From a virus, in IMG/VR virus record IMGVR_UViG_3300020477_000028, positions 1 to 57,713 of that record: a stretch of DNA of 57,713 bases; one strand, 5' to 3'. The notes beneath the pieces are model-generated. The model made no database searches, was not told the origin of the DNA, and saw only the letters and a list, made by a program, of their open reading frames with translations. Every line of letters begins with the position of its first letter. The first letter of the stretch is position 1. Shown here piece by piece: positions 21,401 through 54,800 of the stretch. Made by a program: the position numbers and the translations under genes.

Positions 21401-24400
21401 ATGATTATATTCAAAACCTTGGCTATCATTTTCATATACATTTATAGGAGCAAATCCCTCAACTAAATACCAAACACTTTTATCTGCCATATTAGGTAAA
21501 GAAAAAGTATTTTTAAGTGTAAGATTTATTCTTGTAGCATGTTCTTGTTGAGGAGACATTGTTATATTACTATTACCTGCATCTCTAGAACCTTGTTCCT
21601 TAAGATTATTAAATGTTCTAATAGCTATATCTTTACCACTCATAAGTAATTGTTTAGCCCATTGAGAGCTTTGGGCCCAAGAATTTTCTTTAAGTCGTTT
21701 TCTTTCATATGCAGAATTATTTACTCGGCCTGCAAATTTAAATAAGTAATTATTTAAAGAATAGATCCAGAAAGTTTTAGATTCTGGTCCTATAATTGTA
21801 GTTTGACTAAAGTTTTCACCAGCTAACGCTTCTGCTTCAGCTAATTCCATAACAAAACTATATGAATAATCGTGAGGAGTTTCTATTGCCCACCCTTTTC
21901 CTCTTAAAGGTAATTTTTTTAATTTTTCTACCTGTACAGTAGCAGCTAATAAATCTTTTAATCCATGTTTTGCTCCTTTTCCTCTCTGACGTGTACCTGA
22001 CATTAATTGTTTTAAGCCTTGTAATTGAGTTTCTTTTGAAGATATTAATAGATCTAAAGCGTCTATAGATATTGATATACCTACATCTGAAAGTAAATCT
22101 ATAATATCATATTTAATAGAATCAGGAACTATTTGATCTTCTATATCTTTATTTTTTAAAGATTTTTCTAAACTAGAATATCTCTCTTTTAAAGAATTCC
22201 ATTTAGATCTAAGTCTATTTACTGTACTTTCATTTATAGTTAATGTATTCTCATCATTTAAATTAAAAATATTAGAGAGTTTTAAATTTTCAGCCCACTC
22301 ATTTTTTAATCTATATTTTCTAGTTTGTACCGCAGGATTAATAAGCTGCCAATAATTATCAATTGTTGCTTTACCATCTTCAGTCATTTTTGAAACTTTG
22401 GATACAATAGATGTAAGAAAGTTCATATCTGTCTTAGAAAAAGTATTAAATAATTGAGTTTTTTGATTATCATCTAATGATTTAACCGCTGCCACAACCT
22501 TTTCAAATGTAGGTTTTGATTTTGCTAGCTCATCAAGAGAATCCATCATTTGATCATATGCATATATATACGCTCCTTGATCGTCATAATAATCTACTAT
22601 ACCTGATAATTTACTTTCTAATATATTCCATAAAGTAGTTGAATTTTCAACCTGTACTAATCCTGTACGAGGATCTATAACTGGTTTACCTTCTCTAGAA
22701 AACTTTGGAAAATATGATAATAATATTTTTGTATTAATATTAGCATTTTGTTTACCTCCGAATTCAAAATGAGCACTCATAGCTTGAGATACATCTTTAT
22801 TATCTTTTTCTTGAGCTTCAGTTGCTATTTCTAAAGAAGAAAGTTTTAACATATCTATAATAGCACCTGATTTAGTTTCAGGATTATAAAAATATGTTAA
22901 ATTTTCAAGTAATACTTTAAGATTTTGTGCAGAAGTTTTATCTCCAGCTGCCTCTGCATCTGTAATTTTACGTTTTAAAAATCCAGTTAAAATATTAGAA
23001 CTTACTTTTATATTAGATAAATCTTTAATATTTTTAAAATTACCAGATTGATTAATTAACATAAGTATTAAACTCTTAGCTATTTCTCCTCTATCTTTAG
23101 AATTAAATCCTGCTTCTTCTAAAGCGGCTTCTCCTGATTTAGTTTTAAAAGAATCTAAACTTGCTGCTATCATAGACTCTTCTTGAGTAGCATAATATCC
23201 TCTAGAAAGCCTAGAATAATATTTTTTAGAACTTGGTTTTCTAAATAAATCAAGTAAATATTTTTCTAAAAGATTATAAAAACGAAGTGATAATCTTCCA
23301 AAGAAAGTTTTTCTTTGAGCCTGATTTGTTAATTCAAAATTTCTATATTCTTCAGATCTTAGCTCTTGCAAATGAATACTACGAGCTTGTTGTTTTGTTA
23401 AATTAAAACCAGTATATTTATCTTGTATTTTTTGTATTTGCTCCGAAGTAGGTTCTCCATATTTTTTAGAAGTTTCTTTATTTAGAGCAGCTATTTCTTT
23501 AGCAGTTAAAAAAGACTCTTCTACAACATGCCAAGCTTCATGATATTCTGCACCTTGTTTAGCTTTATTAGATATAGTAATCATACCTTTACTAAATAAA
23601 GCGAATGCTTTTACACCTTTTTTACCTATTTTTAAGATACCGTCTTTAATTTTTGTAGGTATTACTCCACCAAAAGTTTTATCTAACCATTTTAAAGCAG
23701 CTTCAGTATCTATAAGATCTTCTTCTATAGAATTATCTTTATCAAATTCCATAGTAAATCCAAAATCATCTTTATCAGAATCATATTCATCTTTTTCACT
23801 ATCATCAAAGATAATATCATCGTCTTTATGCTCCTCTTCAGACTTTAGTGTATCATCATCTTTAGCAGTTTTCTTTTTCTTTTTAGGTTTAGATTTAGAC
23901 TTATCACTAGATCTACTTATATTTTGTCCTACAACTACCTGTCTATTATGCTGAACTCTTCCAAACTCATCAAGTTGTATATCAGTAGTTAATATTCCTC
24001 CTGCTTCTATAAAATCTAAATTATAGTCATCATTAACACCAAGTTTATATGTCTTCCCTAAAAAGGTAAATTCTTCTATATTAGTATCTTGAAGTAATGG
24101 CATTCTAAAAATATTTCCATTAAATGCTCCTGAATGAGCATTTCTTTTTTTAGTATACTCTTCATTTAATAATTTATTTCTAAATTTTGCTTTTAATCTA
24201 GCCTCAGAAGATTCTTTAAAACTTCCAGCAGTGAATGCTATATTTCCAACTTGAAAATATGAAGAAGTATTATTAGAAGCAGTTTGAAATCCAAAAATAT
24301 TAGGAGATGAAGATTCAAGTTCTTCAACAGTTGGCATATCTTTAGTAGGAGTTACATGTGTGAGTAATCTTAAATATTGTCCTACAGTTAATCCTGTTTT

Positions 24401-27400
24401 TTTATACTGCATACCCATAGTAAAAGGTTTATCTGTAGTAGACTGTATAAGACCTTTTACTATTTCCCACAACTCATCAACTTCTTTACTATTTAAATCT
24501 CTCTGATTTAATTTAATAGGAATTTTAGTTTTTTCTATAGGATCTGTAAAAATTGCATACCATCTACCACTACCATTATTACTCTCAGAATAAATACGAC
24601 TTCCATCTACAATAATTCCTTTATTATTATATGCAAGTATAGGTTTTGATTTTCTGAATAAACTAGAAATTTTAAAATTACCTCCAGGTCCATATTTTTT
24701 TACTTTTCGATTTTGGTTATTAAACATTCCCCAAGTAGCATATATAATAGAACCATAGATATTCGTTTTAGGATCTGATATATAAGCATTTAAAATCTCT
24801 AAACCTAAATTAAGAGTATTTATACCTTCAGCATTAGACGACATTTCGTTCATAACAAATAAATTTGTCATAACAGATTCACCAGTTTTAGGATCTTCTA
24901 ATTTTACACTAATATCTAAATATTTAGCTATTAAAGTATGATAATTATTACCTTTTTTAGCTTGCTCTTTTAACCATTTTTTAGTTATTGCTTTACCGTC
25001 TTTTATACGCTTCTTAATTATAGGAGGTAATTGAGCATATGATTCTGGGCTTATAATATATTGAACTATTAATGATTTTAAAGCTTTACGAGATCTAGAA
25101 TGTATAAACTTATAAACTTTACTACCAAAATTATCTCTTTCTACATTTAAATTTACATCATCTCTATTATTCTGCTCATCTGAAGAATAAGAATCATAAT
25201 CGTCAGTTTTAGAATCTTCTTCAGGAGCATTAGGAGTTTCATCTACTTTCTTATCATCTTGGTCTTTTTGTTCTTTATTTTGATTTTTAGTCTGATTTTG
25301 TTGTTTGTCATTTCCTTCAGCTGGATTATTTTCTTCAAAGTTTATATCTTCTTTAGTATTTTCTTCTTCAGTAGTTTCTTTGCCCTTCTTTTTATTATCT
25401 CGATTTCTTTTTTTATTTTCTCGTTTTTTCTTTTCTATAGTTTCTTTTACTTCAGATTTAAACTCTTCTTTTGGAGTTCTTTTCTCTAAACCTTTATATT
25501 CTTGATCAGATAAAGCGAATTCCTCTCCAAATTCGTCTACAACTACCCACATAGAATCTCCGTCTTTACCTGTTATTTTTTTAAGAACTCCTCTAACCCT
25601 TCCTCCAGCAGCCCAAACATTATCTCCTTCTTTAACATTTTGGTCATCATCTAGAATACTATTTTCATAGTCTTTAGCATTTTTTATTTGTGCGTTTTTT
25701 CTTTTATTTCTTTCTTTTTGGTTATGTTCTACTTCTTGGAACCAAGGATGTTTTGTTATTCTAAATGCTTGATTTTTATTTAAAATTTGCATTCTAGATT
25801 TATCATGTAATCCTTTATCTAACATTCCCATAAATAGCTCTTCATTAGCTTTTACTATTGCTTTATCATCTTGAAGAGAAGGCAATTCTTTAGCACTTTT
25901 TAAACCTAAAGATTTTAATAATTCTCCAAGTTTTTTCTCAGTTTCTGTTATTTGTTTATCTAAAGTTTCTTTCTTTTGATTATTTTGCCATTTAGTAAAA
26001 GTTTTAGATCCTGGATCTTTACTTTTTAATGGTTTAGTGACAGACTTTTTTAAATTTTTAAGAGCTTGTAACTCTTGAAGTAAATTATAAGCAGGTCTTA
26101 AATTTTCAGGAACATTTGGCTCTGCTTTTGCTTTAAGTTTTGATAATCTTTCTGTGGCTTTAGTAATAGTTTTTGCAGCATTTCTAGATCCCTGTATAGA
26201 AAATCCATTAGCTCTCATAATATCTAACTTTTGTGCATCAGTTAAATGTGTATATTCTTTACCTTCTAATTGATTAAATAAATCTCTTTGAGAGTTTATT
26301 TCACTTTCAACTTGTTTAAAATCTATACCTTCAATTGTTCCAGAACCTCCACTATCATTATATCTTTTAAGCCATGTAAGAGCCTTATACATACGATCTC
26401 CTCCATCATTTTTCATGGCATTATAAATCATTTCAGATCTAGTAAGAGATTGCTCAGCATTTAACATTTCTACCCATTTGGCATCATTAAATTCTGCAAT
26501 CTCATCAGAATATTTATTAAAGACATAATTTTTATGAGCTCTATTAGATAAAGCTTGAGTTTGACTAAAACCAACTCCTAATCCCATACCTAAAACTCCT
26601 CCTGCTCTAACTGAATTTCTAAATTCTTCTGTATGAGGTTCATTTCCAGTCCATCTAGAAATAGCCATTTGTCCCATACCTTTTATAGAACCGAACATAG
26701 ATTGACCTGTAATATTTTCAAAATAAGTACCTCCTTGATCATCATATTGTCCTGTAAGATAATCCTTTTTAGTAAGATATTGGTATCCTTCTTCCCAACC
26801 TTCTATAGCTCCTTGAGCTCCCATCATAAGAGGTATCCTACCAAATCTTTTAACTCTGTCACTCCATTTTTTAGCCATATACGGGATTTTTCCCATTTTA
26901 CCGACAGTTCCTACCCAAGGTATAAATCCTATACCTATTTGAACAACGTCTCCTGCAAGAAGCATTTTATTTTTCTTGAAAACATCTTCAGCTCCTTTCC
27001 GAGCTTGACTTTCTAACATTGCTATTATTTTCTTTCCCTCCTCTGTTTTAGGATCTGGGTTTTTTCCTCCATTCCTTATAGCCCAGTCACGAGTTAAAGC
27101 ATTCTTGCGCTGCTCATACGCACTATACATTTCAGCATGAGATTCATTATCTCTCATTACGACAGAACCTATACCACCTATTATACCTCCAGCTGCAATC
27201 ATAATTCCATAAGCAATTTGTCCGTATCCAGGAACTGAATTTGAACCAGAAGCATATAATGCTGTTGATGCTGCTCCTGCCATAAAACCAGCCCCAAGAG
27301 TTGTTGCTAACCATCCTGCATCTGACATAGCTCCACCGACATCTTCTGCAGCTTCAGCGCTTCCCCAATATTTAAATATACTCGTACCCTCATCTTTTTG

Positions 27401-28060
27401 CTGCTCCCTTGCTTTCATTTTATAATGATCAGATACTCTATCTCTTGACGATATTTTTGATTCTTCTTCTAATACATTTTGATTAGCATCATTTATCTCT
27501 TCTTTTAATTCATTTATTTTCTCAAGAAGAGTATTATCTACATTCCCTTCTTCTACATCTTTTAAAGTCTTTCCTTTATTCTCTAAAAGTTCATCTATAT
27601 CCATTTGAGCTCTTAATGCTTTTCCTTTATATCTATCTATTCTTATCTCAGATGCAGTATTCCACATATGTTGCCACCATTGCGTATCTTCATCCGCATA
27701 ATCATTTAATAACCATTCATGAGTTGCTTTACCTGGTTGAAAAGTATTATCATATGTATTTAAAGGATGAGATAATAATGCATCTTGTACATTTCTACGA
27801 TAAGATTTATATGCTACATTTGTATACGTTTCAGGATTTGATTCGTATAATTGTCGTTTAGTATTACGACCTGTATTACCATCAGGTAATACTAATCCAC
27901 TATTATCTTGATTTCCAAGGGAGTTTGTACGTCTTTTACGAGAAGAATTTGTTAAATCCTCTCTTAAGTCTTCACTTTGTACTACTTCTTTGTCTATAAA
28001 TAAGTCTGTATAATTATCTATAGGACGAGTACGTCTTTTATTCTTATTTCCGTTTGCCAT
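15434..28060 (-). CDS. Giant virion RNA polymerase polyprotein with zincin-like domains
   Basis: 4,208-residue polyprotein. Residues 2953-2957 are DFDID inside K-T-G-A-D-F-D-I-D-K-L-Y, the metal-binding catalytic loop of crAss-like virion RNA polymerases, preceded by Y-R-I-P-N-Q and G-F-L-P-A-H. A single-subunit two-barrel polymerase ejected with the DNA to transcribe early genes is established for phage phi14:2; its polymerase protein is about 2,200 residues, so this one is nearly twice as long. The N-terminal 450 residues contain Gly/Ala-rich hydrophobic segments (about 245-300 and 365-390) that could contact membranes. Charged low-complexity linkers lie near 853-960 and 1387-1450. HEAWH (1507-1511) and HELLH (4035-4039) suggest two zinc metallopeptidase-like domains flanking the polymerase, perhaps for self-processing or ejection. 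No frameshift is seen over 12.6 kb. Confidence 0.88.
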   Translation of the reverse strand: MANGNKNKRRTRPIDNYTDLFIDKEVVQSEDLREDLTNSSRKRRTNSLGNQDNSGLVLPDGNTGRNTKRQLYESNPETYTNVAYKSYRRNVQDALLSHPLNTYDNTFQPGKATHEWLLNDYADEDTQWWQHMWNTASEIRIDRYKGKALRAQMDIDELLENKGKTLKDVEEGNVDNTLLEKINELKEEINDANQNVLEEESKISSRDRVSDHYKMKAREQQKDEGTSIFKYWGSAEAAEDVGGAMSDAGWLATTLGAGFMAGAASTALYASGSNSVPGYGQIAYGIMIAAGGIIGGIGSVVMRDNESHAEMYSAYEQRKNALTRDWAIRNGGKNPDPKTEEGKKIIAMLESQARKGAEDVFKKNKMLLAGDVVQIGIGFIPWVGTVGKMGKIPYMAKKWSDRVKRFGRIPLMMGAQGAIEGWEEGYQYLTKKDYLTGQYDDQGGTYFENITGQSMFGSIKGMGQMAISRWTGNEPHTEEFRNSVRAGGVLGMGLGVGFSQTQALSNRAHKNYVFNKYSDEIAEFNDAKWVEMLNAEQSLTRSEMIYNAMKNDGGDRMYKALTWLKRYNDSGGSGTIEGIDFKQVESEINSQRDLFNQLEGKEYTHLTDAQKLDIMRANGFSIQGSRNAAKTITKATERLSKLKAKAEPNVPENLRPAYNLLQELQALKNLKKSVTKPLKSKDPGSKTFTKWQNNQKKETLDKQITETEKKLGELLKSLGLKSAKELPSLQDDKAIVKANEELFMGMLDKGLHDKSRMQILNKNQAFRITKHPWFQEVEHNQKERNKRKNAQIKNAKDYENSILDDDQNVKEGDNVWAAGGRVRGVLKKITGKDGDSMWVVVDEFGEEFALSDQEYKGLEKRTPKEEFKSEVKETIEKKKRENKKRNRDNKKKGKETTEEENTKEDINFEENNPAEGNDKQQNQTKNQNKEQKDQDDKKVDETPNAPEEDSKTDDYDSYSSDEQNNRDDVNLNVERDNFGSKVYKFIHSRSRKALKSLIVQYIISPESYAQLPPIIKKRIKDGKAITKKWLKEQAKKGNNYHTLIAKYLDISVKLEDPKTGESVMTNLFVMNEMSSNAEGINTLNLGLEILNAYISDPKTNIYGSIIYATWGMFNNQNRKVKKYGPGGNFKISSLFRKSKPILAYNNKGIIVDGSRIYSESNNGSGRWYAIFTDPIEKTKIPIKLNQRDLNSKEVDELWEIVKGLIQSTTDKPFTMGMQYKKTGLTVGQYLRLLTHVTPTKDMPTVEELESSSPNIFGFQTASNNTSSYFQVGNIAFTAGSFKESSEARLKAKFRNKLLNEEYTKKRNAHSGAFNGNIFRMPLLQDTNIEEFTFLGKTYKLGVNDDYNLDFIEAGGILTTDIQLDEFGRVQHNRQVVVGQNISRSSDKSKSKPKKKKKTAKDDDTLKSEEEHKDDDIIFDDSEKDEYDSDKDDFGFTMEFDKDNSIEEDLIDTEAALKWLDKTFGGVIPTKIKDGILKIGKKGVKAFALFSKGMITISNKAKQGAEYHEAWHVVEESFLTAKEIAALNKETSKKYGEPTSEQIQKIQDKYTGFNLTKQQARSIHLQELRSEEYRNFELTNQAQRKTFFGRLSLRFYNLLEKYLLDLFRKPSSKKYYSRLSRGYYATQEESMIAASLDSFKTKSGEAALEEAGFNSKDRGEIAKSLILMLINQSGNFKNIKDLSNIKVSSNILTGFLKRKITDAEAAGDKTSAQNLKVLLENLTYFYNPETKSGAIIDMLKLSSLEIATEAQEKDNKDVSQAMSAHFEFGGKQNANINTKILLSYFPKFSREGKPVIDPRTGLVQVENSTTLWNILESKLSGIVDYYDDQGAYIYAYDQMMDSLDELAKSKPTFEKVVAAVKSLDDNQKTQLFNTFSKTDMNFLTSIVSKVSKMTEDGKATIDNYWQLINPAVQTRKYRLKNEWAENLKLSNIFNLNDENTLTINESTVNRLRSKWNSLKERYSSLEKSLKNKDIEDQIVPDSIKYDIIDLLSDVGISISIDALDLLISSKETQLQGLKQLMSGTRQRGKGAKHGLKDLLAATVQVEKLKKLPLRGKGWAIETPHDYSYSFVMELAEAEALAGENFSQTTIIGPESKTFWIYSLNNYLFKFAGRVNNSAYERKRLKENSWAQSSQWAKQLLMSGKDIAIRTFNNLKEQGSRDAGNSNITMSPQQEHATRINLTLKNTFSLPNMADKSVWYLVEGFAPINVYENDSQGFEYNHITKEVSFGPVVTRIFTNYAIDEIIRIQSVHEELFGKNKLADEHLIEYYHYTKLDKNGKPIRKSANGLKFVMFPSLNNEKALKDMGVMTESGKFIVNFDQEKVKDYLAPRINAILGLRFLKEVELAIENGVIGERVNANGLKILTNRSIDKDIYSGLLRKKRVQDQGIKHNAAIGLAIGQYMINNMVSFVETTKLLSGDPAFYKNLDDMAKRLPELIAPGQDLRIVEGKEHFNVAIIRDYIIDESKYYKNYLSWYMKQGMSQAEAKEILSPYKNINVTDAQAYITLGRWRDLMVMLGKWDESYDPMYKRLSDPEKYGQPTVEDLNMILAQPLKGMYFGIRDGVKDSRGLSNTKIPTYLKYSQAVLVPSLIKNRELANLLTLMEKNNVDEVIFESGIKVGAQLPSVIHKEGTLGDILENATLNPFKLDNRDWKLQQELSPHVSPLQLEGSQVKKNIIGNIDLEATFKVPTHMEKQKDGTFIQRYKEVSGWDLVKEVHEIDRALSDAQKESLEQEWGIEYLGEDVNDQPMYKINNIEKIQKILLKSFASKENTSTKLLKSLELEERGGKMTWKYGGDLGLDSHPFSEDIGNMISSLITKKTVKLEMPGGSYIQMSNFGFQKTSKFSELDNATKAEILKGVNENKLGPAYVTKNGVVRAQIFLPSWFKDMVPGVDGMSQTQIKKYIKDKRLLRAIGYRIPNQGMSSIDSLEVVGFLPAHMGDTVVAYDEITSKTGADFDIDKLYIMLASYGVRTNNDGTKSPFYVEYDGRRTVDGNKEARSKNKGLYTKALRNRKLELYDSILTSSNTFVQLVSPLDSVGLKNDAAMVRYLENKHLLSQAQINEIENSKGTPEFYSTVSNIVSNLQDLEWFSPGYQMHLKETFLGGKFGVGQTARHLVDHMISQWSLDQELESPLYLAEDNLLIGNVTKNNNTDLSQIYTRNSLNMISNTLSSRLDAYVDIAKDPYIFYINNNTITANTVFMMDRMGVNPTWTNSFMSLPQIKKYVKYEKYLRGSTEGLEINGKTYYSKAENIIIDALSKALKEERGLKKTDPLPITNLSSPESLAKYYVRTKHDIKTEIEDSKIYQETLEKINNNELKIDDIITVKDLHNMIDKTTTNDMYQELVLFKFFLDMKKKASSLNKIVSASKADTVGANRGLLGSIISRNLIEQAVLESTFEGFNERFEGTMLGKYQSNGPDLMYNLFKDYFILGNPMIEESIYEIGNTVGKKWQMKTDEEFLRKTYNAFKTYLFTKTPYWKSINVEDLFYGKDSIAQKLYKYKNDEKSPIKDNALIRYLTPNFSNLKDGYDYITSPATTKKDGKEKDVLTEAWDSLLNHEDKNIQKFAKDLYKVSLVESGMQNTLFSYHELAPLDFETETGIYQEYGILINNIKDLGMNRSEIMDFLRGQTGNTSLVPEIQLKGKEGKMDVKGIGGMPLHIVLEPKGSRMRYVTHPAPVLEDSTGYPIFTPFLELKQGTSRHLYEHLGYDKTGNAVYRLAERTGRYDKGKNIYESPGTTAIKENEISVVDKKGQTRYLLEEKSILDITESYLEGGVSRNQALEINSELGIAFNESSERDGERFVSTQGESSDFTSMSFDIIDIKQDLNSILDPGYELKNSFMAPLQNINGAIKLGTFKTISEAIEKGVRIEDAINSALKYNLEMKESLLNTKGDLSLANEKGVYQGYSYFMNKARHLIGNNTLIDMLNLEEAALYEYKGEMMSIPNNSIPAITLLDMLQHEMGNSNTYTLIYNLMRNKLQGNPIDLMFVPENEFGLFLSKSKTIVAQYQYNEQYSQSAIIVRELKKDGKLNKKEIGIAVLHELLHYYTVEGVSKNPEFRKKIGTIASMYLTEHVDTMPKALAQYLNPDNFTGDPVNDELVHTKMLGEFITYGLTDPIVIKQLKKSVVTDSQGNVQSLWKSFVKALLDLFNIEKNDSLYDLLFRTVDEFVEKSVDLRDAKTQRNNFISSIFNNKDSRDALGRVEKASRKPNKKCD

Positions 28061-43892: not shown

Positions 43893-44810
43893 TTAGTTCT
43901 TTAAATCTAGTTTCTCAGGACTCTGTAAATGCCCAAAGAATTTATCATATCTATGAGGTTTAGGTAAGAGTCTAATATGTTGTTTACGTATACCTTCTAA
44001 CTCATCTATAGTTTTAGGCATGTTAGCTTTATTTCTTGCTTGCTGGCAATACCAATGCCAATCATCTTCTAATTTCATATATAGTTGAGCAGGAAGATGT
44101 CCTTGTAAAAATTCAGAATATTTTACTTTATATGTTATATATCTTTTAATGGCTTCTATATAAGATACTTCATCAGGTATCATAGGGTATCCGCGGTCAT
44201 CTAATGCCGTGGAAACATATGCAATACAGATATTACCCTTTTTAAAAGAAGTTCTAATATATGGCCAATCTAAAGCATATTCTTGTTGACATGTTGGAGA
44301 AATGTCTGTACAATTTGAGCAATGATTAGTATAAGGAGTAGTGAATGGCCCAGATGCTTTAGGAAGAGGTCTATAATTATCATAATAATAAGCAGTCGCT
44401 CTAAATGTATTTGGTTTATAATATTGTAAGAATAATTCAGCATTTTGTATTAATTGAGCAGATGTAGCACATACACTTGCACAACTAGAGCAATCAGGAT
44501 CAGTACAAGGATCATCACAGGTAATACAGTTATCTGCTGTAGTTAAAAGAGCAGTTGTAGTATTAGCTCCTTCAGTATACTTATACGCCATCATTACTAT
44601 TTGTTTCATACCAGAAGGTACCAACGTTCTATAATCATCGACTTCGAGATGTGCTACTTTCTCTATAAGCTGTGTGTAAGCTCCTATAAACTCTAGGGCT
44701 TCACCTGCCCATTCTATCATGTCTGTTTCATTAAGCTCTACAACAGGCTTTAAATCTCTATAAAGTCCAGATATAACTCTTTCTATACTTGTTAATTGTA
44801 CTTGACTCAT
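43893..44810 (-). CDS. Portal-proximal ring (tail tubular-like) protein
   Basis: 305-residue virion protein whose first roughly 75 residues (S-I-E-R-V-I-S-G-L-Y-R-D, W-A-G-E-A-L-E-F-I-G-A-Y, V-D-D-Y-R-T-L-V-P) match the helical start of crAss-like ring proteins that sit between portal and muzzle. A Cys-rich stretch (about 90-115, with repeated C-x-x-C spacings) and further Cys near 165-175 are unusual for a virion ring and could bind metal. The C-terminal half is helical with a basic end. Location directly before the muzzle-like gene supports the role. Family match is by pattern and synteny. Confidence 0.6.
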   Translation of the reverse strand: MSQVQLTSIERVISGLYRDLKPVVELNETDMIEWAGEALEFIGAYTQLIEKVAHLEVDDYRTLVPSGMKQIVMMAYKYTEGANTTTALLTTADNCITCDDPCTDPDCSSCASVCATSAQLIQNAELFLQYYKPNTFRATAYYYDNYRPLPKASGPFTTPYTNHCSNCTDISPTCQQEYALDWPYIRTSFKKGNICIAYVSTALDDRGYPMIPDEVSYIEAIKRYITYKVKYSEFLQGHLPAQLYMKLEDDWHWYCQQARNKANMPKTIDELEGIRKQHIRLLPKPHRYDKFFGHLQSPEKLDLKN

Positions 44811-44815
44811 AATTT

Positions 44816-45256
44816 CTATTCAAAAAATTCTACACTATTACTTTTTAAAAGACTTGCTAACGTTCGTTTATTCTCTCTTGTAGGAGAGAATGAATAAGCT
44901 GATTTATTTGTAAATATAGCTTTCTTCTTATGCCAGAACCATTTAAAGTAATATCCATCTGTATGAAAATTTAAATGGAATACTTTAATATTATGTTCTT
45001 TTGTAGATTTCCAATCTACACGTCTCTTATTACTATTTGTAATCTTTTTAATTCTAACTATTCCTAAACCTGCAGGAAGTTTAAATTCAAAAGAATTCTC
45101 GATAATAGCTTTAGATACCATTTTATTAAACCTAATACATATATCTCTGTATATAGATTTATCTATACTAGACATAAGTTTTTCATTTTTAAATTCTTTT
45201 TCAAAATCTACATATGCATCTACTAAAGTCTTATTTCTTTTCTTTTTTCTACTCAT
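44816..45256 (-). CDS. Conserved basic crAss-type protein, possibly HU/IHF-like or ring-associated
   Basis: 146-residue, strongly basic protein. It starts with a Lys/Arg cluster, then a helix (S-I-Y-R-D-I-C-I-R-F-N-K-M-V-S-K-A-I-I) and F-K-L-P-A-G-L-G-I-V-R-I-K-K. The 'helix, loop, L-P-x-G-L-G-x-x-x-I' layout recalls the HU/IHF fold, and crAss-like genomes do carry IHF-like genes near the ring genes. A structural role is also possible. It ends with R-E-N-K-R-T-L-A-S-L. It overlaps the preceding gene by one base and sits 5 nt before the ring gene. Confidence 0.55.
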   Translation of the reverse strand: MSRKKKRNKTLVDAYVDFEKEFKNEKLMSSIDKSIYRDICIRFNKMVSKAIIENSFEFKLPAGLGIVRIKKITNSNKRRVDWKSTKEHNIKVFHLNFHTDGYYFKWFWHKKKAIFTNKSAYSFSPTRENKRTLASLLKSNSVEFFE

Positions 45257-45969
45257 TATCCTTGTGGTGTTTGTGCAGGCCTAGGCGCGGGAGGTGCTCC
45301 TCCTGAATCTTCAGCTGCATTATTAAAGTTGTCTTTTGGTACTGCTTTAAATGTTCCTACAAGCTCTTGTACAGCTCCTTGTACAACAGCATCTAATAAA
45401 TGTCCATCTACTGGAAATTCTTCATCATGAGGATAAATACACCCTGTTAAACACGCGTTTACATATAAAGGCTCTAAAGGATCTTCAAATACTCCGCTTA
45501 TGGAAATGTATTTTAGAAGAGAGTTGGTAGTAATGAATAAATAACCGTCCTTTATAAAGTAATCTGGTTCTCCAGAAGTGTATTTGTCCCCTGATTTATA
45601 CTTCTTCTTTACCCAATCAGTTTTGGAATATATGACGCTTCCGTCCTGGTTAGAGACTGCCTCTAGCTCAGCTCCAACAACAGATTGTACAGGTTTAGGT
45701 ACTTTTTTCTTAGAACGTAACATTTTACACCCTGGGGCAGGGGCACATGGACACTCGTTAGGAAGTGCCTCCTGGAGTTCTAAGCAAGCAATTGTTTGTA
45801 CAATCCAATCTGAAACTTGTCGTTTCTTGTCTATTTCTCTTTTTATAAGTAGTGCTCTAGATGCACATATTTTTTCATAAATAAGTCTATCAGATAATCT
45901 TATGTCATCTGATGCAGTTCCTTTACCATATAAGGCTCTTACTCTTGATATTATATCGTTAATTGTCAT
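45256..45969 (-). CDS. Ring/head-tail connector-like virion protein
   Basis: 237-residue protein. It begins T-I-N-D-I-I-S-R-V-R-A-L-Y-G-K-G, followed by D-D-x-R-L-S-D-R-L-I-Y-E-K-I, typical of a crAss-like tail-connector family located beside the muzzle gene. The middle carries a Cys/Pro-rich loop (C-P-C-A-P-A-P-G-C, about 76-84), then a beta-rich part; the C-terminal helix region is followed by a Gly/Ala/Pro-rich tail. It overlaps both neighbouring genes by one base, so translation is likely coupled. Exact position in the tail cannot be deduced. Confidence 0.55.
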   Translation of the reverse strand: MTINDIISRVRALYGKGTASDDIRLSDRLIYEKICASRALLIKREIDKKRQVSDWIVQTIACLELQEALPNECPCAPAPGCKMLRSKKKVPKPVQSVVGAELEAVSNQDGSVIYSKTDWVKKKYKSGDKYTSGEPDYFIKDGYLFITTNSLLKYISISGVFEDPLEPLYVNACLTGCIYPHDEEFPVDGHLLDAVVQGAVQELVGTFKAVPKDNFNNAAEDSGGAPPAPRPAQTPQG

Positions 45970-48492: not shown

Positions 48493-48747
48493 CTAATCAA
48501 GAGTGTTTAATTCATCAGCACGTTTTTCAGATGGCCATCCACAATTAGGCCCTACACTGATCTTACCATTACTCGCCATATGGTCCATAAATGCGTAAGT
48601 TCTGTGGTTAACTCCTGAACAACATCCTGTATTTTTCAAACATCTTCTTGCATGTAATCTTGCTATTAAATGCCCATTCGCAGAAACCCTTTTTGAAGGA
48701 TAATGAGATGGGTTACAAGCACACATATCTAATTTTGCTAAACTCAT
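48493..48747 (-). CDS. Small Cys-rich protein, unknown
   Basis: 84-residue protein with Cys at C-A-C near the N-terminus, in C-L-K-N-T-G-C-C in the middle and P-N-C-G-W near the end, plus several His. The pattern suggests metal binding but no family is recognised. Its start overlaps the stop of the holin-like gene by 4 nt (ATGA), so it belongs to the lysis-side cluster. It has no signal peptide or membrane segment. Confidence 0.55.
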   Translation of the reverse strand: MSLAKLDMCACNPSHYPSKRVSANGHLIARLHARRCLKNTGCCSGVNHRTYAFMDHMASNGKISVGPNCGWPSEKRADELNTLD

Positions 48748-49139
48748 TTCTTTTTGGTTTTTTCAAGCGATCTTCCTCCAAAATAGGCTCCAATCACTGT
48801 TATTAATACTAATTGTAAAAGATCTGTCCATTTTTCTTCTACTTCAAATGCAATAGTACCAGCATCAATAAAAATTAATAACATAGTACATACTATTAAA
48901 AATATAAGAACTAAAGGTCTTACATTTTTAGAAAGCCAGGAATCAGAGTTCATATCAGCTGTCCATCTATCTGTTATATTTTTTTCCATAGCAGCTTCAT
49001 GGCTTGCAATAAGTTCCTGCATTTTTTGTTTAGCTTCTAGCTTTTCAGCTTTAGATGTATGTAAGTTATCTATAACTCCTCCTACACCCTCAACTAATTG
49101 AGCAGCTCCTCCACTAAATATTTTACTTAATATATTCAT
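48744..49139 (-). CDS. Holin-like protein (GTA_holin_3TM type)
   Basis: 131-residue membrane protein. The N-terminal half is amphipathic and helical. A conserved-looking D-S-W-L-S-K-N-V-R-P precedes a transmembrane helix (about 78-98), and a second lies at about 107-123, followed by a basic tail E-K-T-K-K-K. This is the layout of the 3TM holin family found in phages and gene transfer agents, which permeabilise the inner membrane at lysis. It forms a cluster with the 28-residue peptide and a second small membrane protein. Confidence 0.72.
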   Translation of the reverse strand: MNILSKIFSGGAAQLVEGVGGVIDNLHTSKAEKLEAKQKMQELIASHEAAMEKNITDRWTADMNSDSWLSKNVRPLVLIFLIVCTMLLIFIDAGTIAFEVEEKWTDLLQLVLITVIGAYFGGRSLEKTKKK

Positions 49140-49236: not shown

Positions 49237-49455
49237 TTATTTTTTGTTTGCGAATTTTTCAACTCCAGCTATACCGAAGCATCCTAATACAACCCATACA
49301 AATGAGTTATATACAAATTCATTTATTACTAAATCTTTGCCTACATAACCTGTAAGAAGATCTGCGAGCATTATTAAACACATAATTACAAATGCTACAA
49401 AGCCTATTATAGACTTTTCATTCCAATCGTTACTGTCTTTAAATATATTCATCAT
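49237..49455 (-). CDS. Two-TM holin-like small membrane protein
   Basis: 72-residue protein with two predicted membrane helices (about 15-34 and 45-65) separated by a short loop with G-Y-V-G-K-D, and a basic end (F-A-N-K-K). Size and topology fit a class II holin or a similar lysis accessory. The start overlaps the stop of the T9SS-type protein gene (ATGA), so it is translated from the same message. Which of the two small membrane proteins is the actual holin cannot be decided. Confidence 0.6.
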   Translation of the reverse strand: MMNIFKDSNDWNEKSIIGFVAFVIMCLIMLADLLTGYVGKDLVINEFVYNSFVWVVLGCFGIAGVEKFANKK

Positions 49456-51758
49456 TCTAAAATTATTTTATCAATTTTTATTATTTTATCTCTTACTTTT
49501 ATTACAGCTGTATATAACCCTTTACTAAAAGGCGTTATATCAATTCTATTCACATTTTCTTTGGAGAGTATTCTCTCTCCTAGTATAGTGTATAGCTCTA
49601 CGTCTACAAATATACTAAAATTCAAGGTACTTTTTGCTGGATTTGGCCATATAGTTAAATAATTATTAGCTTCTGTTATCGCGGTAGGCCATCCTTGCTG
49701 ACAATAGTTATATAAAATTTGACAACTATTATCCCACGCAGTGTTACAACAATAATTATCTACATCAATTACCCATGCATAACATCCATCATTTAACCAA
49801 TATGGATTACCTGGACCAGTTATACAACCTGCGTCATATAAACAAGAAGTAGAATCATCTACATTAGCTAATGGATCGTAGTTCCACGCATCTTGGTCCA
49901 TACAGCCTTCGACCACATCAATACACGAACCATTGTCAGTATTAGCCAACGAATCATAATTAAGAGCAGTACTATCGGTACAACCATAAATGTAAGGTAT
50001 ACAGCTAAAATCTTCGGTATTAGCGGATGGGTTGTAATTGAGCATAGAAGGATCAGTACAACCATAGATATAAGGAATACAAGTGTTATTGTCAGCATTG
50101 GCTAAAGGATTAAAGTTAAACATAGTAGAGTCCATACAGCCATATACAAAAGGCTCACAACTCCCATCATCTGTGTTACATGTATCACAATAATTATACA
50201 TAGTTGCATCTATACATCCATATATGAGTGGGATACATGTTGAATCGTCTACATTAGCATTTGGATTGTAATTAAAAGCTAATGGATTCATACACCCATA
50301 TATAATTGATATACATGATCCTGTAAGCTGAACATTCGCATTAGGATCATAATTTAAGGCTGTACTATCCATACAACCTACTACTATTAAAGTAGAACAA
50401 GAACCATCATCAAAATCAGCAGTAGAATCATATTCTAGATATAAAGGATTCATACATCCTGCTACATAATAACAAGATCCATCATCTGTATTTGCAGAAT
50501 CAATATAGTTTAAAGCAGTTGAATCTATACATCCAAATACTTTTTCTATACAAGTATTACCACAATTAGTTATTGCTGTATATGGAAATAAAGGCTGTAT
50601 AAAAGGAGGCTGAACGCTTATAAGAACATCACCTTCTGGATTCATTAATGTAAATCCACATTCTATAGTTGTTAAAGATGCTTGAGCAGTAATTAAAAAC
50701 CTTGCTACTATAAGTTCTGGAGCTGTTAAATCTAAATAATAAACATCATCAAATCCTCCTGTATGAGTAAATTGATATATCGAATCTTGAAATGTTATCT
50801 CTAAAGTAGATCCTACCCATCCATTACCCATTAAGTCATGAAGTATAAGAGTATATTGACAACTATCTATAAGATCCATTGAGTTAGCATTTGGATCATA
50901 ATTATACATAGTAGAGTCGGTACATCCAAATATTTTTAATACTTGGCAGCTACTATCATCTACAGTTGCAAATGGGTTAAATTCTAAATATGCAGGATCC
51001 ATACATCCGTATATAGGAAGGCAAGTATCAGATACAAATATATGAGTTGAATCACTTCCAAATGCTGGATCTATACCGTATACTAAAGTATCATTACATT
51101 GTGTTATATAATAAGAACCGTCTTGTCCTTGCCATAATGATCCATTTAATCCATCTCCATATGAATCAAAAATGGTAAAGTTTAAAGGTCCTACAGGAAT
51201 ACATACAGGGACAATAACAGTTCCATAGTCTGGTTGAGCTCCATAATTACCTCCAGAAGCTACTACAATGCCTAATGTATCTGTAATTTCCCAAGATGTT
51301 TCTGATTGATATTGATCTAAATTTATAATAACTGTAGCAGGAACACAAGGTCCAGGAGGAGGATTAGGCATACATTGAGGTACTGTTCTAGTTGAATATA
51401 AACCAGTTGTAAAACTAACAGTTGGATAATTTATAATAGTATCCTCACAAACTGCTACATAATAACTACCATCCATTCCATCACCATATGTATCTCTCAT
51501 TAAGAAAACAATAGTAGATGTACTATCAGGTATATAACATGTATCTGAATATGTTGTATTTGGAGCTGTATAATGCCCCGCAGATACTTCAGCTATAGTA
51601 TCTCCATAAAGAGAATCCTGCATTAGTATCCAATAAGTCTCTGAAGGATATGAATCAGTTGTTAAACTAACAACAGTTTGTTTTTGTCCAAAAGCAAACT
51701 GTATTGATAACAACATAAATATAAAAATTGCTAATATTGTATATAATATATTCTTCAT
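49452..51758 (-). CDS. Secreted repeat protein with T9SS C-terminal sorting domain
   Basis: 768-residue exported protein. Residues 1-25 are a typical signal peptide ending F-A-F-G-Q. Then come three related beta domains (about 25-240 and 300-385) with D-x-Y-G-D-G or D-L-M-G-N-G-W patterns. From about 250 to 640 it has around eleven copies of a 22-residue Cys repeat, G-C-x-D-x-x-x-x-N-Y-x-P-x-A-x-x-D-D-x-S-C, known from surface proteins of Bacteroidota. The last 75 residues (W-P-N-P-A-K-S-T-L-N-F, later G-L-Y-T-A-V-I and a basic-hydrophobic end) match the type IX secretion (Por_Secre_tail) sorting domain. A phage gene product addressed to the host surface is unusual; adhesion, exclusion or host-surface remodelling are possibilities. 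It lies next to the lysis cluster. Confidence 0.8.
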   Translation of the reverse strand: MKNILYTILAIFIFMLLSIQFAFGQKQTVVSLTTDSYPSETYWILMQDSLYGDTIAEVSAGHYTAPNTTYSDTCYIPDSTSTIVFLMRDTYGDGMDGSYYVAVCEDTIINYPTVSFTTGLYSTRTVPQCMPNPPPGPCVPATVIINLDQYQSETSWEITDTLGIVVASGGNYGAQPDYGTVIVPVCIPVGPLNFTIFDSYGDGLNGSLWQGQDGSYYITQCNDTLVYGIDPAFGSDSTHIFVSDTCLPIYGCMDPAYLEFNPFATVDDSSCQVLKIFGCTDSTMYNYDPNANSMDLIDSCQYTLILHDLMGNGWVGSTLEITFQDSIYQFTHTGGFDDVYYLDLTAPELIVARFLITAQASLTTIECGFTLMNPEGDVLISVQPPFIQPLFPYTAITNCGNTCIEKVFGCIDSTALNYIDSANTDDGSCYYVAGCMNPLYLEYDSTADFDDGSCSTLIVVGCMDSTALNYDPNANVQLTGSCISIIYGCMNPLAFNYNPNANVDDSTCIPLIYGCIDATMYNYCDTCNTDDGSCEPFVYGCMDSTMFNFNPLANADNNTCIPYIYGCTDPSMLNYNPSANTEDFSCIPYIYGCTDSTALNYDSLANTDNGSCIDVVEGCMDQDAWNYDPLANVDDSTSCLYDAGCITGPGNPYWLNDGCYAWVIDVDNYCCNTAWDNSCQILYNYCQQGWPTAITEANNYLTIWPNPAKSTLNFSIFVDVELYTILGERILSKENVNRIDITPFSKGLYTAVIKVRDKIIKIDKIILE
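49830..51020 (-). repeat. About eleven 22-residue Cys repeats (GC-x-D type)
   Basis: Coding repeats within the T9SS-type gene, about 66 nt each, some separated by inserts. Copies have diverged at the DNA level but keep both Cys, the N-Y-x-P core and the acidic D-D before the last Cys. Two to three further copies occur at 57490-57670 in the truncated gene at the window end. Confidence 0.75.
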
Positions 51759-52103
51759 TTATTTTTTCTTTTTACCTCCCCAGTATTCGACAGCAAATCC
51801 TTCTTTAACTAGAGTTTCATTAATATTCATATCGTCTATATGAAGCGTGCCTAAAACTCGCCCATATTTTCCAACTTCTTTACTTTTTAATATAAATTCT
51901 CCTCCTTCTAAAAGTTCTTCTAATCTTGCTTTAGAAGCTAATCCTCTAGCTTTTTCTTCAAGATCTCTAGTTCTAGATTCTGGAGTATCTATTCCTGCAA
52001 GTCTTATTCTTTTAGATATAGTTATATCAAAGCCCAAATCTATATGGGCATCTACGGTATCTCCGTCAATTATTCTATCTAATTTTGCACTATAAGTATA
52101 CAT
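51759..52103 (-). CDS. Thermonuclease (staphylococcal nuclease-like)
   Basis: 114-residue SNase domain. R-I-I-D-G-D-T-V (10-17) is followed by I-R-L-A-G-I-D-T-P-E (33-42) with R34, D39, T40 and E42, and K-Y-G-R-V-L-G supplies R82; these match the catalytic Arg, Asp, Glu, Arg set of staphylococcal nuclease. It would hydrolyse DNA or RNA with calcium. No signal peptide is present, so it acts inside the cell or in the particle, for example on host DNA at late times. It starts 2 nt after the thioredoxin-like gene and its stop abuts the T9SS-type gene. Confidence 0.88.
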   Translation of the reverse strand: MYTYSAKLDRIIDGDTVDAHIDLGFDITISKRIRLAGIDTPESRTRDLEEKARGLASKARLEELLEGGEFILKSKEVGKYGRVLGTLHIDDMNINETLVKEGFAVEYWGGKKKK

Positions 52104-52105
52104 TA

Positions 52106-52462
52106 TTAAAAATCACTCATTAATAACTCGTCAATAGTACCTTGTACTTCTTTTCTAGTAGCTTTCATGCTAAAAGATATATCTGCTTGAAATCTCTTTA
52201 CTTCTTCTCCATCTTTAAATATAATAATAGTAGGTACTACAACTATTTCATATTTTTTTTGAATTTTTGGATCAGCTGCTATATCTATATATTTTATTTT
52301 ATCTACATCTGTTAATTCTTTTAACCATGTAACTTTATTTGCATCATTCCATTCTGCATTATATTGAGCTACAATTACTTGTGCTGAAGCCATAGAAGAG
52401 CTAAATAATAAAAATAATATTATCAGATACCCTGCAAGTATTTTCCAAACTGGATCTTTCAT
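52106..52462 (-). CDS. Exported thioredoxin-fold protein lacking CxxC
   Basis: 118-residue protein with a signal peptide (residues 1-27, hydrophobic core I-I-L-F-L-L-F, cleavage likely after A-S-A). The mature part has the thioredoxin pattern: a V-A-Q-Y-N-A-E-W strand, helix, D-I-A-A-D-P, V-V-V-P-T-I-I-I-F with the cis-Pro, and K-D-G-E. Where the W-C-x-x-C site should be there is Y-N-A-E-W-N-D-A-N, so no redox Cys exists in the mature protein. It cannot be an oxidoreductase; a periplasmic binding or scaffold role is inferred. It lies 4 nt after the paralog pair. Confidence 0.72.
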   Translation of the reverse strand: MKDPVWKILAGYLIILFLLFSSSMASAQVIVAQYNAEWNDANKVTWLKELTDVDKIKYIDIAADPKIQKKYEIVVVPTIIIFKDGEEVKRFQADISFSMKATRKEVQGTIDELLMSDF

Positions 52463-52466
52463 AATT

Positions 52467-52835
52467 TTATACGAAAGTCCCGTATTCTACCATAGTATCA
52501 GCTGCTGATGCCCACACTGTTATATCTACTGCCGCTTTCCAAGGAAAAAATGCCCATTCACCTGCACCTATTACTAAATCTACTTGAGCTACTGTAGCTG
52601 TAAATTTAACATTTAGTGTATTACTTGCGTGTTTATTCCTTATATATACTTTAGTACCTTCAGCATGATCCGCTTGTCCTAATAATAGTACTGCTGCACC
52701 ATCTGTAGTAGCATCCACTTCTTTTAATAGTATTCCTCCCTGTGTTACAGTCAAATCTTTTACTGTAGAACTTGCTAAGTTTGCAGTTGTTAGATCTGAA
52801 GAAGAAAGGGTTACTGTTGTTTTTAAAGTTCCCAT
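52467..52835 (-). CDS. Decoration-like small virion protein, copy 1
   Basis: 122-residue protein without Cys, made largely of short strands rich in Val, Thr and Ala, with G-A-G-E-W-A-F-F-P-W-K-A-A near residue 92 and Y-G-T-F at the end. It shares this layout with its upstream neighbour (copy 2), including the N-terminal T-x-K-x-T-x-x-L-x-S-x-D-L-T-T pattern. Similar compact beta proteins occur as small virion components in marine phages, so a decoration or fibre-associated role is likely but unproven. Confidence 0.6.
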   Translation of the reverse strand: MGTLKTTVTLSSSDLTTANLASSTVKDLTVTQGGILLKEVDATTDGAAVLLLGQADHAEGTKVYIRNKHASNTLNVKFTATVAQVDLVIGAGEWAFFPWKAAVDITVWASAADTMVEYGTFV

Positions 52836-52863: not shown

Positions 52864-53238
52864 TTATGCTCCAAATATTCCATACTCAATAATAGAGCCT
52901 TGAGTTGTTGCATATGCATTTATATCATCTCCTGCTGCTGACCATGGAAACCATGCCCACTCGCCTGGAGCTAATACCATATTATCTGCACCTCCTATTT
53001 CTAAATACACATTGTCTGTAGTTCCAGATTGACAGTTTTTTACATATACATAAGCACTTCCTGCATAATGAGTTTCTTCTGCAAGTTCTTCTTGTGAGCC
53101 TGTAGCAGTTCCCCAAAGTTTTCTACGATGGAGTCCTCCAGTAACTATAGATGTCAAAGTATTAAGAACAGTCACATCTAATGAATCTGTAGTCAGATCT
53201 GTAGATGTTAGTTTTAATGTTGATTTTACTGTTGCCAT
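52864..53238 (-). CDS. Decoration-like small virion protein, copy 2
   Basis: 124-residue paralog of the next gene downstream, with L-A-P-G-E-W-A-W-F-P-W-S-A-A and terminal Y-G-I-F-G-A in matching positions and the same N-terminal pattern. The spacers before the two genes are also alike (AT-rich with GTTAATAAT), so gene and leader were duplicated together. It differs in having one Cys and more polar loops. Function is inferred as for copy 1. Confidence 0.6.
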   Translation of the reverse strand: MATVKSTLKLTSTDLTTDSLDVTVLNTLTSIVTGGLHRRKLWGTATGSQEELAEETHYAGSAYVYVKNCQSGTTDNVYLEIGGADNMVLAPGEWAWFPWSAAGDDINAYATTQGSIIEYGIFGA

Positions 53239-53541: not shown

Positions 53542-53751
53542 TTAATCCCAAAATATTAAAGTTCCTATAATTCCTAATATCGCTACCCATACAGACCATA
53601 ATGTCTTTTGAGTACTCTTTCTAAAAGAAGTGTTTTTATTCACTCTCGCTATTGTACCATCATCAGGATCTAGAAGTCTTTTTTTAATAAATCTTACATC
53701 TTCTTTTAAATCCTGTATATCCTCATGTATCTGTTGGTTAGTTATTTTCAT
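53542..53751 (-). CDS. XhlA-like small membrane protein
   Basis: 69-residue protein with an amphipathic N-terminal helix (H-E-D-I-Q-D-L-K-E-D-V-R-F-I-K-K-R) and a C-terminal membrane helix (about 49-67, W-S-V-W-V-A-I-L-G-I-I-G-T-L-I-F-W). This order and size match hemolysin XhlA-type phage proteins that assist holin-endolysin lysis. It overlaps the upstream gene by 4 nt (ATGA), and pairs with the 91-residue TM protein. Assignment is by topology. Confidence 0.55.
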   Translation of the reverse strand: MKITNQQIHEDIQDLKEDVRFIKKRLLDPDDGTIARVNKNTSFRKSTQKTLWSVWVAILGIIGTLIFWD

Positions 53752-54800
53752 AATATTATATAATTTATTCCAAATTTAAAATCATACCATTTTCTATTCC
53801 AGTATTTATTATATTTTCCTTCTATAAATGTTCCTAAACTTTTATTTATTTTCCATCCATATATTAAACCTCCTGAATAATCAGTCCATTGTCCGTCATT
53901 AAACTTATGATATGAATATTCATTTCCATCATCATAATGACGAGGTAATACATTTGCCCAACTATGAAACCAAAAGTTTTTAGTATAATGATAAAAATCA
54001 AATCCTATTACTAAAGAATGATTCCACTGTGGAGGTAAAGCATTTCTTTTCTTTTCTACATAATCTGATAATACTGTAGGTATTATTACTTCTTCCCATA
54101 TAGTAGTATTTGTAGCAACTATATTACCATTAGGATCTTTATATTCACTATTAAATACATCAATTTCATATCCTTCTTCTATTGCTAAATTGGTATAATG
54201 TATATCTCCTGTAGATAATACCCATTCTGCTAAAGGATCATATCCATAAGGTTCAGCAATACGTTGTACAGATCCTATATTAAAAGAAAGTTTTTTTCCT
54301 AATTTTTGTCTATATCTTTGTGAAGACTCAAAATATTCTATATCTGCAAATCCATCTTGTAAATATTCAGTTTTTACAATCCAACGATTAGCTACATATC
54401 TTAAAAAATGATGTTGATCTACATAATTTATTCCTTGTTGTCTTTTATAATCAGCTTCAAATAAGAATTCTAATCCTGATACTTTTCCTAAAGTAGCTGC
54501 ATCTGAAAAAGATGTTTCAGTTCCATCATAAAATGTATTAGCTCTATTTTCATATCCAAAACGAGCTATTTTACGTATTCCTACTGTAATAGAATAATCA
54601 AAAGGAGTTTCAATAGTTGAAGTTTCTAATCCATTTGTAACAGAAAATACATCTACATCTGAAATAGAATTTCCTCCATTTACAGCTCCATAAAAAGTAG
54701 AAAATTTAAAATATTTTTTAAATTTATTTTTTTTCGGAGCATCTTGTCCTATAGCAGCAAAACTACCTAATAAAAATAATATGAATAATAATTTTTTCAT
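53748..54800 (-). CDS. Outer-membrane beta-barrel-like protein
   Basis: 350-residue protein with a clear signal peptide (M-K-K-L-L-F-I-L-F-L-L-G-S-F, cleavage after A-I-G-Q or nearby). The mature part has alternating aromatic and polar strands throughout, with many Tyr, Trp and Phe, and ends in a strand F-K-F-G-I-N-Y-I-I-L, like barrels recognised for insertion into the outer membrane. A phage-encoded barrel could block receptors (superinfection exclusion), aid release or be a virion part; the sequence does not decide. It follows the Cys-rich 106-residue gene directly. Confidence 0.65.
   Translation of the reverse strand: MKKLLFILFLLGSFAAIGQDAPKKNKFKKYFKFSTFYGAVNGGNSISDVDVFSVTNGLETSTIETPFDYSITVGIRKIARFGYENRANTFYDGTETSFSDAATLGKVSGLEFLFEADYKRQQGINYVDQHHFLRYVANRWIVKTEYLQDGFADIEYFESSQRYRQKLGKKLSFNIGSVQRIAEPYGYDPLAEWVLSTGDIHYTNLAIEEGYEIDVFNSEYKDPNGNIVATNTTIWEEVIIPTVLSDYVEKKRNALPPQWNHSLVIGFDFYHYTKNFWFHSWANVLPRHYDDGNEYSYHKFNDGQWTDYSGGLIYGWKINKSLGTFIEGKYNKYWNRKWYDFKFGINYIIL

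Follow-up and report, generated by a model that had tools for sequence, protein, structure and literature searches.

Introduction

The question raised by this locus is whether a phage protein is addressed to the type IX secretion system (T9SS) of its bacterial host and, if so, what such a protein would be for. The window, meaning the whole 57,713-base stretch of DNA analyzed here, is a linear IMG/VR virus fragment. Phage-encoded T9SS cargo is already known and was published in 2019 and 2020 for two other phage groups (PMC6949934, PMC7468147). We examined the predicted cargo of the window, its relatives in other phages, the genes around it, and the hosts from which its parts may derive.

A crAss-like genome encodes a predicted T9SS cargo

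As judged from the families of tail ring protein 1, tail ring protein 2, and the muzzle protein (Table 1), the window is a fragment of a crAss-like phage (Crassvirales). A major capsid protein, portal, and terminase of the crAss type were not recognized in this linear fragment. The opposite strand of the record carries a DnaB-like helicase, a primase, Sak4, and a ribonucleotide reductase. By ring protein 1, the window comes nearest, among named phages, to those of Flavobacterium psychrophilum and to gut crAss-like phages (24-36% identity), and tblastn searches of the INPHARED phage records gave no match for the cargo and none for the barrel protein. This low identity and the absence of INPHARED matches point to a crAss-like lineage for which a cultured close member was not found. 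The late gene block also holds an ORF of 4208 aa (15434-28060, minus strand).

Table 1 Features of the late region of the window
Feature	Coordinates	Strand	Evidence or remark
crAss-type muzzle protein, 2209 aa	37260..43889	-	PF25731, E 1.8e-54
crAss-type tail ring protein 1	43893..44810	-	PF24228, E 1.1e-51
crAss-type tail ring protein 2	45256..45969	-	PF25702, E 9.2e-37
Holin	48744..49139	-	PF11351, E 9.2e-6; phrog_3427, E 4.5e-31
72-aa membrane protein	49237..49455	-	Start overlaps cargo stop codon (ATGA)
Predicted T9SS cargo, 768 aa	49452..51758	-	ATG start; signal peptide, beta-rich DYGDG-type domains, 11 Cys repeats, YCC...WD..C segment, type A sorting domain
Predicted C-terminal sorting domain of cargo (WPNP...GLYTAV...KIILE)	49455..49652	-	TIGR04183 placed at 49458-49652
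Predicted signal peptide of cargo	51684..51758	-	Predicted cleavage between ...FAFG and Q; helix 2-20 in AF2 model
Staphylococcal-nuclease-like protein, without signal peptide	51759..52103	-	PF00565, E 3.3e-15; position varies among relatives
Exported thioredoxin-fold protein, WNDAN replacing WCxxC	52106..52462	-	PF00085; PDB thioredoxins, E 5e-9
91-aa protein, coiled coil after a single N-terminal membrane helix	53265..53540	-	Sequence, alignment of 35 relatives
69-aa coiled coil, C-terminal membrane helix	53542..53751	-	Sequence; in part of relatives
Outer-membrane beta-barrel, 350 aa, signal peptide	53748..54800	-	AF2 pLDDT 73, about a dozen long strands

The sequence-only reading had described a 768-residue ORF with a signal peptide and about eleven Cys repeats, situated between a nuclease and holin-like genes. 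Translation of the minus strand bears out both the protein and its setting, as an SNase-family nuclease lies upstream of the cargo and the 72-aa membrane protein, then the holin, lie on its other side. The eleven GC(M/T/I)D...NY...C repeats were counted by eye in the translation. Signal peptides were called throughout from the sequence and a hydrophobicity rule, and the N terminus of the cargo, MKNILYTILAIFIFMLLSIQFAFGQ, reads as signal-peptide-like with a Gln at position +1.

The same reading had taken the C terminus to be typical of T9SS cargo, and both sorting-domain families indeed matched residues 703-767 above their curated cut-offs: TIGR04183 with E 5.1e-7 (29.6 bits against a cut-off of 23) and PF18962 with E 6.1e-7 (30.1 bits against 27), the latter barely exceeding the Pfam cut-off. 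A profile search of the 57.7-kb record found this match in the cargo C-terminal domain (CTD) only. Among 42 related viral records, 16 contain a TIGR04183 match above the curated cut-off.

In the AF2 model of the cargo, residues 703-768 are confident, with four C-terminal strands and pLDDT values mostly of 73-91, and the repeat region is poorly modeled (pLDDT under 50). Foldseek aligned the modeled CTD to 8glk_D, which is the NucA CTD as solved within the secretion complex of this T9SS substrate, with a probability of 1.00, a TM score of 0.77 by target length, and 1.7 Å over 72 columns. Thus the predicted fold, which the sequence-only reading had put forward as a check, matches that of the NucA sorting domain, and the modeled CTD shares the Ig-like beta-sandwich of solved T9SS CTDs. 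Because TIGR04183 recurs in 16 of the 42 related records and the AlphaFold model matches a solved substrate domain, the CTD match is more than chance.

Export signals are conserved among phage homologues of the cargo

Homologues were gathered in a first scan, which yielded 31 viral contigs, and in further scans with the exonuclease, the short tail described below, and the barrel. The 201 resulting loci hold 158 distinct phage cargo proteins, so that the homologues proposed as a further check do exist. With more than 150 of them, chance or a chimeric assembly was ruled out as the source of the gene. The number of Cys repeats varies between phages from 5 to 17.

All 136 homologues that reach the N terminus have a signal peptide. 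A Gln directly follows the cleavage site in 132 of the 136 by regular expression, and L282 also fits by eye; in the remaining three (L019, L026, and L030) the start was wrongly trimmed. A Gln at +1 corresponds to the Q-rule of proteins exported by Bacteroidetes (PMC5837995).

At the other end, the 152 homologues that include the C terminus carry either a type A domain (58) or a different, short tail (93), a ratio that is uninformative because the homologues were partly gathered via the short tail and the frequencies are biased. The one protein with neither, at locus L281, is closely followed by an overlapping ORF that encodes the short tail in another frame. There (L281:1802-3963) a frameshift, either an assembly error or real, splits the cargo gene just ahead of the short tail. 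At another locus (L035:519-758), a natural internal deletion has left a cargo of 79 residues, nearly all of which belong to the signal peptide or to what remains of the type A domain.

A short tail exchanges with the type A domain

The short tail has the consensus KKLIxVTDLLGRPxKxIKNKLLFFIYDDGTVEKKxIK and takes the same position as the type A domain, with which it exchanges. It occurs in 343 confirmed stretches of the genome collection. The best 80 of these 343 matches are in Bacteroidota, mostly marine Flavobacteriales and Cryomorphaceae; within these 80, the short tail forms the exact C terminus of the protein in 78, and a signal peptide is present in 58 of the 67 untruncated proteins. The C-terminal position together with the signal peptides marks the short tail as a label that hosts carry at the C terminus of exported proteins. 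On exported proteins of marine Flavobacteriales (L044-L123, L146-L224), the tail spans about 40 residues (TDLLGR...LFYIYDDGTVEKK), and it is absent from NCBIfam, where no match was obtained at E≤10.

When the profiles of the short tail and the type A domain were compared by hhalign, the probability was 8%, which is not significant, and we therefore refrain from assigning the short tail to type A. A short export signal is plausible, since the signal of HBP35 has been mapped to the final 22 residues of the CTD of that protein (PMC11285876). Of the 12 chosen genomes bearing both the short tail and cargo repeat modules, 11 encode SprA; phylum-wide in Bacteroidota, the short tail was found in 2 of 296 and SprA in 229 of 296, too few for an association test. 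The short tail is likely an undescribed sorting signal.

The tail class switches 7 times on the tree of the barrel protein (121 rows), with at least 4 of the switches forced by well-supported branches, and the body of the cargo is retained across them. The dN/dS values of 0.34 for the type A tail, 0.23 for the short tail, and 0.17 for the adjacent body indicate purifying selection. Taken together, the swapping of tails on a constant body, the purifying selection, and the L035 deletion identify the tail, at the level of sequence, as an export address and not a relic.

The cargo belongs to a putative envelope module

Foldseek matched the barrel model to NanC, NalP, and FadL, and barrel homologues were confirmed in at least 592 viral stretches. 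In most loci, the 91-aa protein adjoins the barrel and thioredoxin-fold genes. A sample anchored on the barrel (76 distinct loci) is free of the short-tail sampling bias; here the coiled coil is present in 64 loci, the thioredoxin fold in 62, the cargo in 63, and a tail in 59, and in most of the loci that lack a cargo or tail the contig ends nearby. The barrel, coiled coil, thioredoxin fold, and cargo are thus linked despite their variable order, often with a holin added. The barrel was absent from 12 chosen genomes of the host clade.

We considered whether the barrel is a shuttle of the PorP/SprF type and rejected this, as no such Pfam or NCBIfam match was obtained and type A substrates use PorV (PMC12618676). 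The barrels of nine loci (L002, L004, L008, L011, L018, L019, L029, L030, and L040) begin with a lipobox-like sequence (LxSC.APK.CC.Q) rather than a plain signal peptide. Between the thioredoxin-fold gene and that of the 91-aa protein, two paralogous proteins of about 123 aa (...GEWAWFPW..., 52467-52835 and 52864-53238, minus strand) are encoded, and related phages have one to three copies in many places.

The thioredoxin-fold protein retains the frame of the active site without its cysteines. The WCxxC positions were read against an E. coli reference sequence. Among 142 complete relatives, the Trp is kept in 137, Asn occupies the two Cys positions in 140 and 137, respectively, and the cis-Pro is invariant (142 of 142). 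The relatives also share a conserved C-terminal ...SDF, and the protein is lineage-specific. The PDB profile alignment instead places a gap at CxxC, likewise leaving no cysteines. Going by its sequence, the protein cannot be a normal oxidoreductase, as the CxxC of a catalytic thioredoxin is missing. For the same reason, it was ruled out as a disulfide oxidase acting on the Cys-rich cargo.

Cargo modules occur in the likely hosts

Peptide patterns from the cargo found no relative in the genome collection. A profile search with the cargo alignment gave 3-69 matches per genome in all 12 chosen genomes of the host clade, down to E 4e-69, and some of the host-clade proteins that contain cargo modules have a signal peptide and a type A CTD (L130, L132, and L138). 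By these matches, the phage cargo is made up of modules that also occur in surface proteins of the likely hosts. The sequence-only reading had narrowed the host to T9SS-bearing Bacteroidota, which the Q-rule signal peptides, the host-type repeat modules, and the tail all appear to support.

Discussion

We consider it probable that this crAss-like phage infects marine Flavobacteriales and that the T9SS type A cargo which it encodes is exported via Sec and the host T9SS as one part of an envelope module. Both addresses, the sorting-domain fold, the conservation, the tail replacement, and the linkage of the module were computed here. The original proposal of a T9SS address receives good support from the sequence, the predicted fold, more than 150 phage homologues, and the replacement of the tail by another host-type tail. 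The transport itself, its timing, and its purpose are what we infer from them. The cargo would be made late, to judge from its position beside the holin and tail genes. Sec would move it over the inner membrane, and signal peptidase would expose the N-terminal Gln, as in exported host proteins; this route through Sec and signal peptidase is established knowledge. PorV and the host T9SS translocon would then take the cargo by its CTD across the outer membrane, after which it would be anchored at the cell surface or released to the medium, in keeping with the dependence of type A recognition on PorV and the subsequent anchoring or release of the substrate (PMC12618676). The cargo would work within the phage envelope module, together with the outer-membrane barrel, the inner-membrane coiled coil, and the redox-dead periplasmic thioredoxin fold.

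As for its purpose, the cargo may cover infected cells, or the debris left by lysis, and so shield them from adsorption by the same or competing phages, a suggestion that we offer tentatively. Phage T5 Llp and similar proteins are made by phages for the cell envelope, where they change the access to receptors and protect the progeny from debris. However, these receptor blockers are lipoproteins or inner-face proteins of Proteobacteria, and none of them is known to use T9SS, so the likeness is one of functional analogy only. By this analogy, masking against superinfection would be the likeliest purpose, followed by adhesion or aggregation and then by a part in lysis. It is also conceivable, with similar reserve, that the envelope module of marine crAss-like phages builds a phage-specified coat on Flavobacteriales via T9SS, using two interchangeable tails, one of them a short and undescribed T9SS address, and a WNxxN fold that helps the Cys-rich cargo.

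Since the domains of the cargo are those of host surface proteins and such repeats suit adhesion, the cargo could instead act for the infected cell as a general adhesin or as a protein that binds nutrients, with a part in aggregation or particle attachment rather than in superinfection exclusion. The phages look lytic, however, as an unsystematic look recognized no integrase, and this leaves little time for a benefit of this kind; we regard such a role as rather unlikely. Still less probable is that the module is a device for lysis or outer-membrane disruption, in which the barrel, coiled coil, thioredoxin fold, and cargo act late with the holin. Three loci (L033, L034, and L042) have the holin directly after the cargo and overlapping its stop, the 91-aa protein, with its coiled coil and N-terminal membrane helix, resembles an i-spanin in topology, and the Foldseek matches make the barrel an outer-membrane protein, but lysis has no need of a long, host-like, and variable surface protein, the holin lies kilobases from the cargo in several relatives, and no endolysin was recognized within the module.

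The cargo might also be a part of the virion, a tail fiber or decoration that binds the host by its repeats and whose CTD is the relic of a captured host gene. It lies among the structural genes, with an 834-aa protein of weakly virion-like character on one side and the genes for the ring and muzzle proteins on the other, which would suit this explanation, as would a repeat number that varies from phage to phage as in receptor-binding proteins; moreover, for some crAss-like phages the BACON proteins have been interpreted as components of the tail (PMC6949934). Against this, capsids assemble in the cytoplasm, where an exported protein cannot join them, and the signal peptide is present in every homologue with an N terminus and the tail in every one with a C terminus, that of L281 lying in another frame. 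A relic would moreover decay, whereas this tail is under purifying selection and is swapped for another host-type tail. We therefore find a virion part very improbable and retain the exported cargo as our preferred explanation.

The exported cargo can be compared with three known systems. Cryophage likewise encodes proteins with T9SS type A domains in a phage of Bacteroidetes, for which superinfection exclusion was proposed (Nat Commun 2020, PMC7468147). However, that phage, of 76 kb and from cryoconite, has an endoglucanase, a GH39 protein, and a PA14 protein as its cargo, whereas the cargo here is one Cys-repeat family that spans many marine crAss-like phages, lies in an envelope module, and exchanges its tail types. 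ORFs with T9SS sorting domains are also present in gut crAss-like cluster 2 phages, near structural genes, and one carries BACON and T9SS domains together (Viruses 2019, PMC6949934). Those differ in coming from gut phages and in their BACON context, and no function or module was described for them. Flavobacterium johnsoniae NucA, RemA, and AmyB combine a signal peptide and a TIGR04183 domain as the cargo does, and the modeled cargo CTD superposes on that of NucA, but the cargo is a phage gene with an unrelated body. A conserved gene module around a phage T9SS cargo was not found in the literature consulted. What is new here is that the cargo is conserved throughout a lineage and swaps between two tails of host type, together with the envelope module and the redox-dead thioredoxin fold.

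If this interpretation holds, ocean phages of an abundant group remodel the surface of their hosts by means of the hosts' own secretion machine, and an uncultured phage lineage becomes tied to T9SS-bearing marine Flavobacteriales. It would also indicate a short C-terminal export tail that is missing from current family libraries, and it would offer a direct way to test superinfection and the handling of debris by crAss-like phages.
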